Assembly: GCA_902514665.1 (NCBI GenBank)
Contig: CABXRS010000009.1
Coordinates: 1 to 41,844 of the forward strand
Origin: an uncultured Pelagibacteraceae bacterium
Lineage (GTDB): Bacteria; Pseudomonadota; Alphaproteobacteria; Pelagibacterales; Pelagibacteraceae
DNA: 41,844 nucleotides
Direction of reading: 5' to 3'
In this document: positions 17,906 through 22,175 of the stretch, piece by piece
How the letters are laid out: every line of letters starts with the position of its first letter
Position numbering within the stretch: the first letter of the stretch is position 1
Program-made: the position numbers and the translations under genes
The notes under the pieces: generated by a model
The model's input: the letters and a program-made list of their open reading frames with translations, nothing else
The model's database searches: none
Told to the model about the DNA's origin: nothing

Positions 17906-18550
17906 ATGCCACATACTGGGCAAATCATGGCAAAATATAAGCTAACTTGGAAAGATCTAACAACAACGGATTTTAAAACATATTTGTTCGCAATGTTCAA
18001 AGCGTTCATTCCTAAAAAAAAAATTAAAAATTTAGATGAACTCGAAGTATTCATTCAAACTAAATCTGCATGGGTTACGCAAGTAACTTTATATAATTAT
18101 TTAAAAACTCGGATGGGAACAAGATATGTCCTCCATTTTGATAATGATGAGTTCATGGGGTCTGTCAATCTTGCTAAATGGAATATTTATTCTGTAGCAC
18201 TTCAAGATTTATCTCTTTTTACATTCTCTTATTTAAAAGTGAATTTTAATTTTCAAGACACCGATAAGGCGAAAGAGATTTTTAATAAAATATTAGACGA
18301 TGAAATTTCAAATAAAATGCCACTAGATATTGTTGACCAAGCTAGAATAGATTTTGACAACAGATTTCAAAATACTAATTGGGATACTTATTATACAGAC
18401 CTTCCATTTAATCCAAGTGCACTCTCTTTGTACAAATGGGCGCCAATCGCTGAAGAATTAAAATCCTTAGATCGTAAAATTGTCTTAAACTCTATGATAT
18501 TAAAGTGGGATGTTATCAAACAAGAATTTCAAAACTTAATTCAGTTTTAA
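17906..18550 (+). CDS. Conserved-looking hypothetical protein between symporter and acs
   Basis: A 214-residue soluble protein of no family I recognise. It is rich in Lys, Asp, Phe and Trp, with no signal peptide or membrane segment. Features are [49 protein letters not shown] and a C-terminal [37 protein letters not shown] 17927 (MAKYKL) is an alternative start. It diverges from the symporter pair, and its stop overlaps the acs stop by four bases. Position suggests a link to carboxylate uptake, but that is inference only. Confidence 0.7.
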
Positions 18551-20673
18551 ATATTTTTTCTATTATCAACTAAACTATCAACAACGCTTGGATCAGCCAA
18601 AGTCGTAGTATCACCTAATTGTCCATGTTCGTTTGCAGCGATCTTTCTTAAAATTCTTCTCATTATTTTACCCGATCTAGTTTTTGGAAGACCTGGAGTA
18701 AAATGTATAAAGTCTGGAGTTGCAAGTGGACCAATTTGCTTTCTAACCCAAAGTTTTAAATCTCTTTCAAGATCTCCAGTTTCAGTTTCACCTGCATTTA
18801 AAGTGACGTAACAATATAGACCGTTTCCTTTAATATCATGTGGGTAACCAACTACTGCTGCTTCAGCAACTTTTGGATGAGCAACAAATGCACTTTCGAT
18901 TTCAGCAGTACCTAAATTATGTCCAGATACAATAATTACATCATCAACTCGTCCAGTGATCCAGTAATATCCATCTTTATCTCTTCTACATCCATCACCA
19001 GTAAAATATTTCCCGTTGAACTGAGAAAAATATGTGTCGATAAATCTTTTATGGTCTCCATAAACAGTTCTCATTTGACCTGGCCATGATTGAGCAATAC
19101 AAAGTCTTCCTTCTCCGGCGCCTTTTATCTCTTTTCCGTTTTTATCTACAATGACAGGTTTTATTCCATAAAAAGGTTTTGTCGCTGAACCAGGTTTTAA
19201 CGGAATGGCTCCTGTTTGAGGAGCTATCAGGATTCCTCCTGTTTCAGTTTGCCACCAAGTATCTACAATTGGGCTCCTAGAGTCCCCAACTGTTTTGTAA
19301 TACCACATCCAAGCCTCAGGATTAATTGGTTCACCAACAGTACCAAGTAATTTTAGTGACTTTCTAGAAGTTTTCTTAACTGGTTTATCACCTTCACGCA
19401 TTAAAGCTCTAATTGCCGTGGGAGCAGTGTAGAAAATATTAACTTTATATTTATCAACGATCTGCCACCATCTCGAAGTGTCAGGATAATTAGGAATTCC
19501 CTCAAACATTATTGTTGTTGCACCATTAGCAAGAGGTCCATAGACGATATAACTATGCCCAGTTACCCATCCAATATCAGCAGTACACCAATAAATATCT
19601 TTTGGTTTATAGTTAAAAATGTATTGATGTGTCATTGATGCATAAACCATATATCCACCAGTAGTATGAAGAACTCCTTTTGGTTTACCAGTTGAACCTG
19701 AAGTATATAAAATAAATAAAGGATCCTCCGCATTCATTTCTTCTGGCTCACAATGACTTGGAACATCTTTTATTAGATCATGATACCAAACATCTCTTTG
19801 TTCATTCCAATTGATGTAATTTCCAGTTCGTTTAACAACAATACATTTTTTTACATTAGGACAACTTGTTAGAGCCTCGTCTGTTGTATATTTTAAAGGA
19901 ATAGTTTTTCCACCTCTAACACCTTCATCAGCAGTAATTATATATTCAGACTCACAATCATTTACTCTACCTGAAATCGACTCTGCAGAAAAACCACCAA
20001 ATATTATTGAATGAACGGCACCAATTCTGACACATGCTAACATTAAAATTGCAAGCTCTGGTATCATGGTCAAATAAATTGTAACTCTATCACCTTTTTT
20101 AATTCCAAGTTTTTTTAGACCATTCGCAGCCTTTGAAACTTTTTGGTATAATTGTTTGTAGGTTATTTTCTGACTATCTTTCGGATCATCACCAACCCAA
20201 ATAATTGCAGTTTTATCTTTTTTGTCTTTTAAATGTCTATCGATACAATTTGCAGAAGCATTTAAAGTTCCATCTTGATACCATTTAATTTTTACTTCTT
20301 TATTACTGTATTTAACATCTTTGATTTTTTTATAGGGTTTTATCCAAGTAATTCTTTTTCCCTCTTTTCTCCAAAAATCATCATTACTCTTTATAGATTG
20401 AGAATATTTTTGTTGGTACTTACTTTTATTTGCCAAACTTACTTTTACCCACTCTGGTTTAGTTTTTATGACTATTTCAGGCGGAGCAGAAGCATTCTCT
20501 TTTTTGGTCTTCTTTTTACTTTTCTTTCTTCTTTTAATTTTTTTTGAAACTTTTTTTACTTTAGTTTTTTTCTTAACTTTTTTAGACGATTTATTTTTTA
20601 CTTTAGTTTTTTTCTTAACTTTTTTAGACGATTTATTTTTTACTTTAGATTTTTTTTTCTTTTTTTTGGGCAT
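18547..20673 (-). CDS. acs: Acetyl-CoA synthetase with a lysine-rich N-terminal extension
   Basis: AMP-forming ligase activating acetate to acetyl-CoA. The catalytic body is complete: [13 protein letters not shown], the P-loop [10 protein letters not shown] at 324-333, [32 protein letters not shown] and the acetylatable Lys669 in [10 protein letters not shown]. The first ~58 residues are almost all Lys/Ser/Val/Thr/Arg, including an exact 14-residue repeat (10-23 and 24-37). There is no Met between residues 1 and 203, so the tail appears to be translated, unless the TTG at codon 80 is used. The 708 residues exceed the usual ~650. It follows tsaD and the EVE gene on the same strand. Confidence 0.95.
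20558..20641. repeat. Perfect 42-bp tandem duplication inside acs
   Basis: Two identical 42-bp units (20558-20599 and 20600-20641) followed by a partial third beginning ACTTTAG at 20642. Each unit encodes 14 residues ([14 protein letters not shown]), so the frame is kept. Zero differences between copies suggests a recent duplication or ongoing slippage/homogenisation. The unit contains A/T homopolymers of six to seven bases. Confidence 0.95.
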
Positions 20674-20688
20674 GTTAAAATTTTTTTT

Positions 20689-21102
20689 TTAAATTCTACT
20701 CATGTTATTTATGATTTTCCAGCTTTTATAATCGATTGGCATCACAGATAATCTACTCTGTTTAATCAACGCTAAATTACTCAATTCCTTGCGTTTTTTT
20801 ATATCTTCTAAAGTAACAGTTCTATCTAATTTCTTTTTAAACTTAACAGTTACAGCTACAAAGCGCCCACTTTTATCAGTTTTGTCAATGTAATGTTCTT
20901 TAATGACCTCTACAATACCGACAATTTCCTTACCGATATTTGAATGATAAAAAAAACAAAGATCACCCTTTTTCATAGTTTTTAAATTTTTTGCAGCCTG
21001 ATAATTTCTTACACCATCCCATGGAGCACCTTTAGCACCTGATTTTATTTGTTGATCAATAGACCACACATCTGGTTCAGATTTCATTAACCAATACTGC
21101 AT
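20689..21102 (-). CDS. EVE-domain protein
   Basis: A 137-residue single EVE (PUA-like) domain: YWLMKSEPDVWSIDQ at the start, WDGVRNYQAAKNLKTMKKGDLCFFYHSN in the middle and IVGIVEVIKE after it. EVE domains resemble YTH readers and are thought to bind modified bases; the bacterial role is unknown. The start overlaps the tsaD stop as TAATG. tsaD-EVE neighbourhood is frequent in alphaproteobacteria, which hints at a link to tRNA or nucleic-acid modification. acs follows after 15 bases. Confidence 0.92.
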   Translation of the reverse strand: MQYWLMKSEPDVWSIDQQIKSGAKGAPWDGVRNYQAAKNLKTMKKGDLCFFYHSNIGKEIVGIVEVIKEHYIDKTDKSGRFVAVTVKFKKKLDRTVTLEDIKKRKELSNLALIKQSRLSVMPIDYKSWKIINNMSRI

Positions 21103-22175
21103 TATAATTGAACTCCAGCTCCTTTTAAAAAAGCAGCTTCTTCATCCAAAGGCCATCTAGGTTTTGCAGGGTGATCCAATTCACTAAACTGTTTTAATTT
21201 AAATTTTTCTAAACCAACCATAGCTATCATTGCAGCATTATCTCCACAAAGTTCTATTGGTGGAAAAATGCTTTGGTAGTTTTGCTCTTTACATAAACTG
21301 ATTAGCATATTTCTAATATTTTTATTAGCCGCAACTCCTCCAGCAACAACAAAATTTTTTTCGGTCAGATTATTTTGTTTTTCGAATTCTTTAAAAGCAA
21401 CATTAGTTTTTTTATGCAAAATTTCCTCTATGGTTTTTTGAAAAGATGCAGCTAGATCAAATTTTTCCTGATCTGTCTTAATATTTTTTGTTACTCTTAA
21501 AACTGCTGTTTTAAGACCTGCAAAAGATAAATTACAACCACCTTTACTAAAAATAGGTTTTGGTAAATCATATTTACTAGGATCACCTTTTTTTGCTAAA
21601 ACTTCGATTTGAGGACCACCCGGAAATTCAATTCCTAAAAGTTTTGCAGTTTTATCAAATGCTTCACCTAAAGCGTCGTCAATGGTTGTTCCTAATCTTT
21701 TATATTTACCTAAACCTTGAACATTTAAAAATTGTGAATGTCCACCTGATATTAACAAAAGTAGATATGGATAATTTAAATTTGAATTTAATTTAGGACT
21801 TAAAGCGTGACCTTCAAGATGATTAACTGCTATAAAAGGTTTATCAATTGAAGTGGCAAAAGCTTTTCCAAAACTTAAACCAACTGACAAACAAACAATC
21901 AATCCAGGTCCTGCAGTGGAAGCTACAGCGTCAATTTCATCGATTTTTTTTCCACTATCGTCAATAGCTTTTTGAACAATCCAATCAATTTTTTCAATAT
22001 GAGATCGCGCTGCTAATTCTGGAACCACTCCACCAAATTTTTTATGAACTTCAACTTGACTTGAAACAATATTTGATAAGACTATTGGATTTCCCTGATC
22101 ATTTTCGGTTATTATTGATGCAGCTGTCTCATCACAGCTCGTTTCTATTCCGAGAATTAAGGGTTTTTTGCTCAT
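21102..22175 (-). CDS. tsaD: tRNA N6-threonylcarbamoyladenosine transferase TsaD
   Basis: Transfers the threonylcarbamoyl group to A37 of ANN-decoding tRNAs, working with TsaB and TsaE. The actin-like ATPase fold shows LILGIETSCDETAASI at the start, GVVPELAARSHIEKID, the metal site AVNHLEGHALSP, LLLISGGHSQFL, DDALGEAFDKTAKLLG, FSKGGCNLSFAGLKTAV and FVVAGGVAANKNIR. The length of 357 residues is normal. It diverges from hemC across 56 bases. Confidence 0.97.
   Translation of the reverse strand: MSKKPLILGIETSCDETAASIITENDQGNPIVLSNIVSSQVEVHKKFGGVVPELAARSHIEKIDWIVQKAIDDSGKKIDEIDAVASTAGPGLIVCLSVGLSFGKAFATSIDKPFIAVNHLEGHALSPKLNSNLNYPYLLLLISGGHSQFLNVQGLGKYKRLGTTIDDALGEAFDKTAKLLGIEFPGGPQIEVLAKKGDPSKYDLPKPIFSKGGCNLSFAGLKTAVLRVTKNIKTDQEKFDLAASFQKTIEEILHKKTNVAFKEFEKQNNLTEKNFVVAGGVAANKNIRNMLISLCKEQNYQSIFPPIELCGDNAAMIAMVGLEKFKLKQFSELDHPAKPRWPLDEEAAFLKGAGVQL

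Follow-up and report, generated by a model that had tools for sequence, protein, structure and literature searches.

The acs gene of the window

SAR11 bacteria are among the most abundant marine cell types and have a streamlined genome. In such a cell it is unexpected to find a polycation of about 20-90 residues kept on a core carbon enzyme across nine or ten genus-level groups, and the question raised by the locus described here is what the lysine-rich beginning of its acetyl-CoA synthetase (Acs) is and for which of its properties it is retained. The window, that is, the whole stretch of 41,844 nucleotides that was analysed (contig CABXRS010000009.1 of an uncultured Pelagibacteraceae bacterium), carries the acs gene together with the features collected in Table 1.

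Table 1. Positions of the acs gene, its parts and its upstream neighbours in the window
Feature	Position	Strand	Remarks
tsaD, upstream of the EVE gene	21102..22175	-	PF00814
EVE-domain protein gene, directly upstream of acs	20689..21102	-	PF01878, E 6e-46
acs, AMP-forming acetyl-CoA synthetase with N-terminal tail	18547..20673	-	708 aa; Pfam AMP-binding, AMP-binding_C, ACAS_N; TIGR02188
Lys/Arg-rich tail, residues 1-58	20500..20673	-	37/58 Lys or Arg, 0 acidic
In-frame tandem repeat within the tail	20552..20656	-	42-bp (14 aa), 2.5 copies
Linker, residues 59-79, into the Acs body	20437..20499	-	Overlapping the region in which tail-less orthologues have their start
TTG codon 80	20434..20436	-	Sole alternative start codon within codons 2-100; judged a non-start
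Lys669 of the PKTRSGK motif	18667..18669	-	Taken as the equivalent of Salmonella Lys609

The body of the protein was matched by the TIGR02188 profile with 992.3 bits (curated cut-off 724.95), and the domains followed in the order ACAS_N (residues 86-143), AMP-binding (145-529) and AMP-binding_C (591-669). Its nearest named relatives by sequence, on which the assignment to SAR11 rests, lie on single-cell and metagenome contigs of Pelagibacteraceae and reach 98% identity. When compared with the solved Acs chains 1pg3 and 2p2f (TIGR02188), the window protein shared all domains over a body of about residues 80-682 as well as the PKTRSGK motif; the alignment to these chains begins at window residue 80, the tail being extra. 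The motif lysine, Lys669, was invariant across a 40-sequence alignment and is presumably the acetylatable site, as in Acs enzymes regulated by Pat/CobB acetylation; 1pg3 is the Salmonella enzyme, in which the corresponding residue is Lys609. Judged from these matches, the body behind the tail is a standard acetate--CoA ligase. The tail alone, searched against PDB sequences, returned zero matches at E 0.01 or better.

Residues 1-58 consist of K35 S7 V6 T3 N2 R2 and one each of M, P and I. An earlier note on this DNA had described them as almost entirely Lys, Ser, Thr, Val and Arg with only one acidic residue; the counts bear out this composition, and Glu59 is indeed the first acidic residue (followed by Glu66 and Glu74), only it lies just outside the 1-58 stretch. 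The same note had placed Lys669 about 60 residues beyond Salmonella Lys609, and this agreed with the phmmer alignment, in which window residue 681 pairs with residue 621 of the solved chains (e.g. 1pg3), giving an offset of 60 at this end and 62 at the other.

Translation of the tail

The acs gene begins with an ATG at 20673-20671 on the minus strand. The claims that this is the only ATG start, the next Met being residue 203, and that a TTG at codon 80 is the sole near alternative were both correct, as no other ATG, GTG or TTG occurs in codons 2-100. A start at TTG-80 was considered and rejected; it would delete Trp75, which is invariant in the 40-sequence alignment, and tail-less orthologues begin 17-20 residues ahead of window residue 81 (seven loci shown), that is, upstream of TTG-80, which together make such a start unlikely. 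Every scored tail is, by construction, an open frame joined to the Acs body, and in 93 of 151 tailed loci (one duplicate dropped) the frame offered no further ATG, GTG or TTG up to roughly residue 83 of the body. This result upheld the reading of the tail as a true, translated N-terminal addition.

Start codons of the tailed loci were ATG in 130 and GTG in 22 cases (n=152), and the tail opened with M/V, Pro/Ala, Lys and Lys/Arg in 133/152. A Shine-Dalgarno-like (SD-like) motif before the tail start was found in 31/151 loci overall and was unevenly spread over the genus-level groups of the Acs-body tree: 14/15 in g4, 6/6 in g9, 2/2 in g7, 1/1 in g5, 3/8 in g3, 2/5 in g2, 1/4 in g6 and 0/1 in g14, with only 2/109 in g1 plus the named-contig loci. 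With the motif so rare in g1 and the named-contig loci, the group to which the window belongs has no independent mark of the tail start. In three loci such a motif preceded a later start. Trypsin would presumably chop the tail into pieces under the size ordinary in proteomics, and this may explain why it has gone unremarked.

Charge of the tail against its genomic background

The background was formed by 434 ORFs with a minimum length of 100 aa, taken from the window and from 20 stretches of 20 kb (400 kb, one third) of G003, a genome that is complete and belongs to the same genus. The net-charge maximum over 40 aa reached +0.65 in the window Acs, compared with a median of 0.15 and a 99th percentile of 0.375 among these ORFs; for the Acs of G003, which lies outside the sampled stretches, it was 0.675. 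Whole-ORF charge scoring was adopted because runs of Lys/Arg codons mean little by themselves: runs of six were nearly as frequent with the reversed-pattern control (8+24 vs 7+20, 27+16 vs 22+18 and 14+19 vs 10+22). Starts of the type M-x-KKKKK occurred once per genome in three genomes, and only that of the window belongs to acs. When the tail was used as a protein query against five genomes, only itself was matched; as this search overlooked even the Acs tails already identified in G003 and in a second genome, G009, it carries no weight.

Some other basic N-termini were seen on the way. The only other ORF of the 434 to equal the charge of the window Acs (+0.65) was L295:8073-9269 (minus strand) of G003; its 399-aa product has an Acs-like, Lys-rich N-terminus of about 65 aa followed by what reads as a charged coiled-coil-like region, and is without a Pfam match. 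DksA of G003 (L282:12433-12969, minus strand) has a milder Lys-rich N-terminal extension, and a 472-aa ORF that reads as glutamate-synthase-type (L243:103-1521, minus strand) starts with the short Lys run MAKKKKKKNG.

Distribution of the tail

Within the family, acs matches were obtained in 193/197 genomes (E <= 1e-100). In 21 of them the match reached only E 1e-109 to 1e-142, a level at which a 37%-identical paralogue also scores (7e-120 in G003), so that about 172 genomes have acs itself. The wider searches gave matches in 134/147 genomes of the order (E <= 1e-150), 185/240 of the class (same limit) and 330/398 of the phylum (E <= 1e-200). Nine rows whose ORF leaves the locus or begins past the tail (L068, L089, L097, L174, L179, L194, L213, L236 and L201) were dropped before counting, and L002-L005 gave no match. 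Among the 202 de-duplicated acs loci that were scored, 152 carried the tail (L240 within the 152 repeats L218).

It is clear from the Acs-body tree that the tail is widespread in Pelagibacteraceae, occurring in nine genus-level groups and also in g10, there in a locus truncated within the tail (1/1). All loci were tailed in g1 (17/17), g2 (5/5), g4 (15/15), g6 (4/4), g7 (2/2) and g14 (1/1), as were the seven scored in g9 (L179 is cut inside the tail, L194 is unscored), 8/9 in g3 and 14/15 of the named-contig loci. The tail was scarce or absent in g5 (1/9 scored), g12 (0/6) and the sister family f2 (0/7 scored). The 50 loci scored without a tail comprised 27 outside the order, seven of the sister family, six of g12, eight of g5, L041 and L062.

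A few rows need care. L174 and L179 show a partial tail and were scored as tailed in the tree, and L062, whose short tail falls under the count threshold, was also labelled tailed there. L213, the ninth g3 locus, is unreliable since its ORF is fused with other coding sequence and leaves the fetched stretch; a partial tail is visible and its tree label is "none". L146 is unreliable as well (branch 0.81). In L041:1-330, from the single-cell contig AG-447-P03, acs begins MFKEFKKENGN and the upstream neighbour is a gene other than EVE; it is doubtful whether this locus reflects a tail loss or an assembly chimera.

Outside the SAR11 order, no tail was present in the 27 loci of the same class. With these 27 included, convergent tails were looked for in 73 genomes among the several hundred with a match. 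None was seen in 28 non-SAR11 loci from the phylum search, all of the same class and two of their genomes shared with the 27 above, where the highest Lys+Arg fraction over 30 aa was 0.30, compared with 0.70 in the SAR11 row; nor was any seen in 20 loci outside the class (highest fraction 0.33). The paralogue of G003 is likewise without a tail.

Gain or loss in place

Where at least 300 bases were available ahead of acs, an EVE-domain gene stood directly upstream of it in 152/152 tailed loci, in 14/14 tail-less Pelagibacteraceae loci and in 7/7 loci of the sister family; in the other loci of the class an EVE match was found there in 3/27. Since this neighbour is kept with and without the tail, the tail was gained or lost in place. 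The earlier note had regarded orthologues without a tail, with the stretch left untranslated, as counting against its reading. Tail-less relatives do exist (g12, most of g5 and the sister family), but in them the stretch is absent, not untranslated, given that their acs opens 17-20 residues ahead of the position of window residue 81 in the seven loci shown, with EVE directly upstream (14/14 and 7/7).

On the Acs-body tree, g5, g7, g9 and g12 formed one supported clade, in which the tailed g7 and g9 adjoin the tail-less g12 and the mostly tail-less g5; the rest of Pelagibacteraceae was tailed, except for the doubtful L041 and L213. At least five changes of tail state were needed with L213, L041 and L146 included, on a tree built with a quick method in which 37/102 inner branches are open and 39 rows fill less than half of the columns. 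As we read this tree, one gain followed by loss in g12 and within g5 would cost the same as three separate gains. The absence of the tail in two genera (g12 and most of g5) where acs is otherwise conserved indicates that it is useful, yet dispensable for catalysis. The tailed and tail-less relatives together offer a natural contrast.

Composition and selection on charge

In the 152 tails, the core measured 19-88 aa (median 44), with 50-75% Lys+Arg (median 65%) and a net charge of +12 to +58. The earlier note had proposed to see, across SAR11, whether tail length varies and basic composition is kept, and both were found. Acidic residues numbered 31 of 6680, and among the others Ala and Pro made up 2.3% each, V 5.7%, I 4.3%, L 1.5% and F 0.7%. 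Based on this composition, the tail is most likely disordered. An AlphaFold model made with 40 Pelagibacteraceae sequences was poor over body and tail alike (mean pLDDT 44.5). In-frame tandem repeats of at least 7 aa were detected in 46/152 tails compared with 11.45 in shuffles, and the copies of the 14-aa duplication in the window match at 98%. The tail turns over fast and grows partly through in-frame tandem duplication. Furthermore, in 90 representative tails the non-basic residues avoided spacings of 1-3 and favoured those of 4-7 and 10, a bias that spreads the charge evenly along the tail.

Such a tail could have arisen without any use, if A-rich repeats expand at the gene start in an AT-rich genome, are tolerated and happen to encode Lys. 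AAA accounts for 44% of tail codons, and this, the tandem repeats and the absence of the tail in two genera would all suit such an origin. A within-codon comparison bears on it directly, as a single A-to-G step from AAA leads to the silent AAG, to AGA for Arg or to GAA for Glu. It was carried out with 29 disjoint sister pairs of equal tail length and >75% identity, comprising 1204 tail and 15950 body codons, pairs whose independence on the tree is not proven; tail codons that had changed at more than one site, 40 in number, were excluded. The A<->G changes touching tail Lys codons fell 40 times on position 3 (silent), 42 times on position 2 (K<->R) and once on position 1 (K<->E), with p = 1e-11 for position 2 vs position 1 and p = 0.91 for position 2 vs position 3. 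The same counts in the Acs body were 117 silent, 12 K<->R and 1 K<->E, and the rate of nonsynonymous changes per codon was 0.089 for the tail compared with 0.0071 for the body.

Lys and Arg therefore swap in the tail as freely as synonymous codons, and selection at the protein level retains the positive charge and not the sequence. The charge is not absolutely kept, as changes between Lys/Arg and neutral residues also occurred (K<->N 5, R<->S 4, K<->I 3, K<->T 2, R<->I 2, R<->G 2 and K<->Q 1). The composition of the mRNA gives no explanation for the scarcity of K<->E, because GAA is as A-rich and purine-rich as AGA. This charge bias contradicts pure neutrality, and together with the rarity of acidic codons (0.5% in the tail vs 11% in the body) and the keeping of the tail in nine genus-level groups it leaves the non-adaptive origin distinctly unlikely.

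A possible electrostatic tether and its partners

What is retained is a fast-changing polycation whose charge is evenly spread and is the property under selection, and from this we infer an electrostatic tether. In this proposal, the polycationic extension, added ahead of an otherwise ordinary acetyl-CoA synthetase, would attach by charge and without specificity to some polyanion of the cell, probably to RNA or DNA in the form of ribosomes, mRNA or nucleoid, and its binding would hold or concentrate Acs there. The composition fits RNA, DNA, polyphosphate, acidic membrane or acidic protein alike; nucleic acid is put first as presumably the commonest cellular polyanion. We give roughly even credence to the tail being a translated, probably disordered polycation that tethers Acs to a polyanion, RNA or DNA in the first place. 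The stronger version, in which the charge-selected tail would bind the bulk of SAR11 Acs to the nucleoid, or else to ribosomes and mRNA, and acetyl-CoA would be made beside nucleic acid, seems improbable. ACSS2 is chromatin-bound in animals, and if this version were true, the SAR11 enzyme would be its independently evolved bacterial counterpart. The keeping of a tail under selection on charge suggests that this minimal cell organises its metabolism in space.

Binding to the inner membrane or to an acidic protein, by which Acs would be sited near acetate uptake or another enzyme, appears unlikely. In its favour, hydrophobic residues in the 90 representative tails were spaced 6-8 apart more often than in shuffles (z 4.0-4.4), an enrichment that in 67 repeat-free tails stood at z 5.3 for lag 6 and 2.2 for lag 7; 24% of the 152 tails exceeded z 1.64 for helical (100 degree) periodicity, with a mean z of 0.59, and a weakly amphipathic helix formed upon binding is possible. 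However, lags 3 and 4 were not enriched, and the hydrophobic residues are sparse, as is evident from the V, I, L and F contents given above.

Attraction of the enzyme's own polyanionic ligands, ATP and CoA, or shielding of the enzyme, so that its kinetics are tuned, would suit selection on charge only, but the core length of 19-88 aa and the absence of the tail in two genera are hard to square with a geometry adjusted to the active site, and we consider this reading quite improbable. We place equally little weight on binding to polyphosphate, with Acs joining polyphosphate bodies in stress or starvation; its precedent is the basic-tailed bacterial protein AlgP, which localises to polyphosphate granules according to the part of the source consulted (PMC9239181).

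For the proposed tether to RNA or DNA, precedents exist on other proteins. The consulted part of PMC9239181 also describes the basic repeat tail of AlgP as binding DNA and as required for granule positioning, and that of PhaF as thought to tether granules to the nucleoid. These Pseudomonas proteins resemble Acs in having long basic tandem-repeat tails; as far as that part of the source goes, theirs are C-terminal and built of KPAA repeats, whereas the Acs tail is N-terminal, poor in Ala and Pro and placed on a metabolic enzyme. Repeats of the KPAA type (Lys/Ala/Pro), by which histone H1-like and AlgP-PhaF proteins are recognised, are not a feature of the Acs tails, as the low Ala and Pro contents show. 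Human LysRS has a disordered basic N-terminal extension (RID) with non-specific nucleic-acid binding (PMC6213541, in the part consulted), and the RID, the yeast AspRS extension and the Acs tail are, so far as that part describes the first two, all lysine-rich N-terminal additions on adenylating enzymes; LysRS and AspRS act on tRNA, Acs does not, and no homology is claimed. Some TetR regulators have a histone-like, lysine-rich unstructured region before the HTH (PMC10891134); in the consulted part of that source these regions belong to DNA-binding regulators and are discussed as acetylation targets, whereas the Acs tail stands on an enzyme. A description of the SAR11 Acs tail was not found in the titles and abstract openings of the open-licence literature, among the matches listed, and the tailed Acs is a real, conserved and apparently so far unreported variant of a known enzyme.

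Acetylation and deacetylase genes

The earlier note had suggested that the tail could feed local acetylation or serve as an acetylation sink. The product of Acs is acetyl-CoA, and genes of the histone-deacetylase family (PF00850) are indeed common, being present in 19/21 and 37/40 SAR11-order genomes of two sets. On the other hand, an acetylation substrate should resist Lys<->Arg exchange, which in the tail is as free as silent change (42 vs 40), and SIR2/CobB was found in 0/21 genomes (13 of the window's genus and 8 of the sister family; 11 at least 90% complete and 10 below) by a search that recovered it in 10/14 named genomes. Moreover, both kinds of deacetylase occurred in tail-less genomes (2/7 of g5 and 3/6 of g12), and none of eight tailed genomes from g2, g3 and g6 had more than a single match. 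The suggestion thus found no support, and we regard a role of the tail as lysine sink or as carrier of acetyl-CoA to local acetylation as very improbable.

A co-occurrence of deacetylases with the tail was considered and rejected, as the wider set of 40 genomes showed no tracking with the tail. In the first set, two PF00850 matches were present in 9/13 g1 genomes, the pair in G512 and in G270 probably representing a single gene in pieces, and every one of the 8 sister-family genomes had one match, a pattern that had suggested a connection to the tail; in the 40-genome set, most tailed g1, g4 and g9 genomes had two. Two or more PF00850 matches were counted in 23/40 SAR11-order genomes, those of G028 probably being pieces of one gene.
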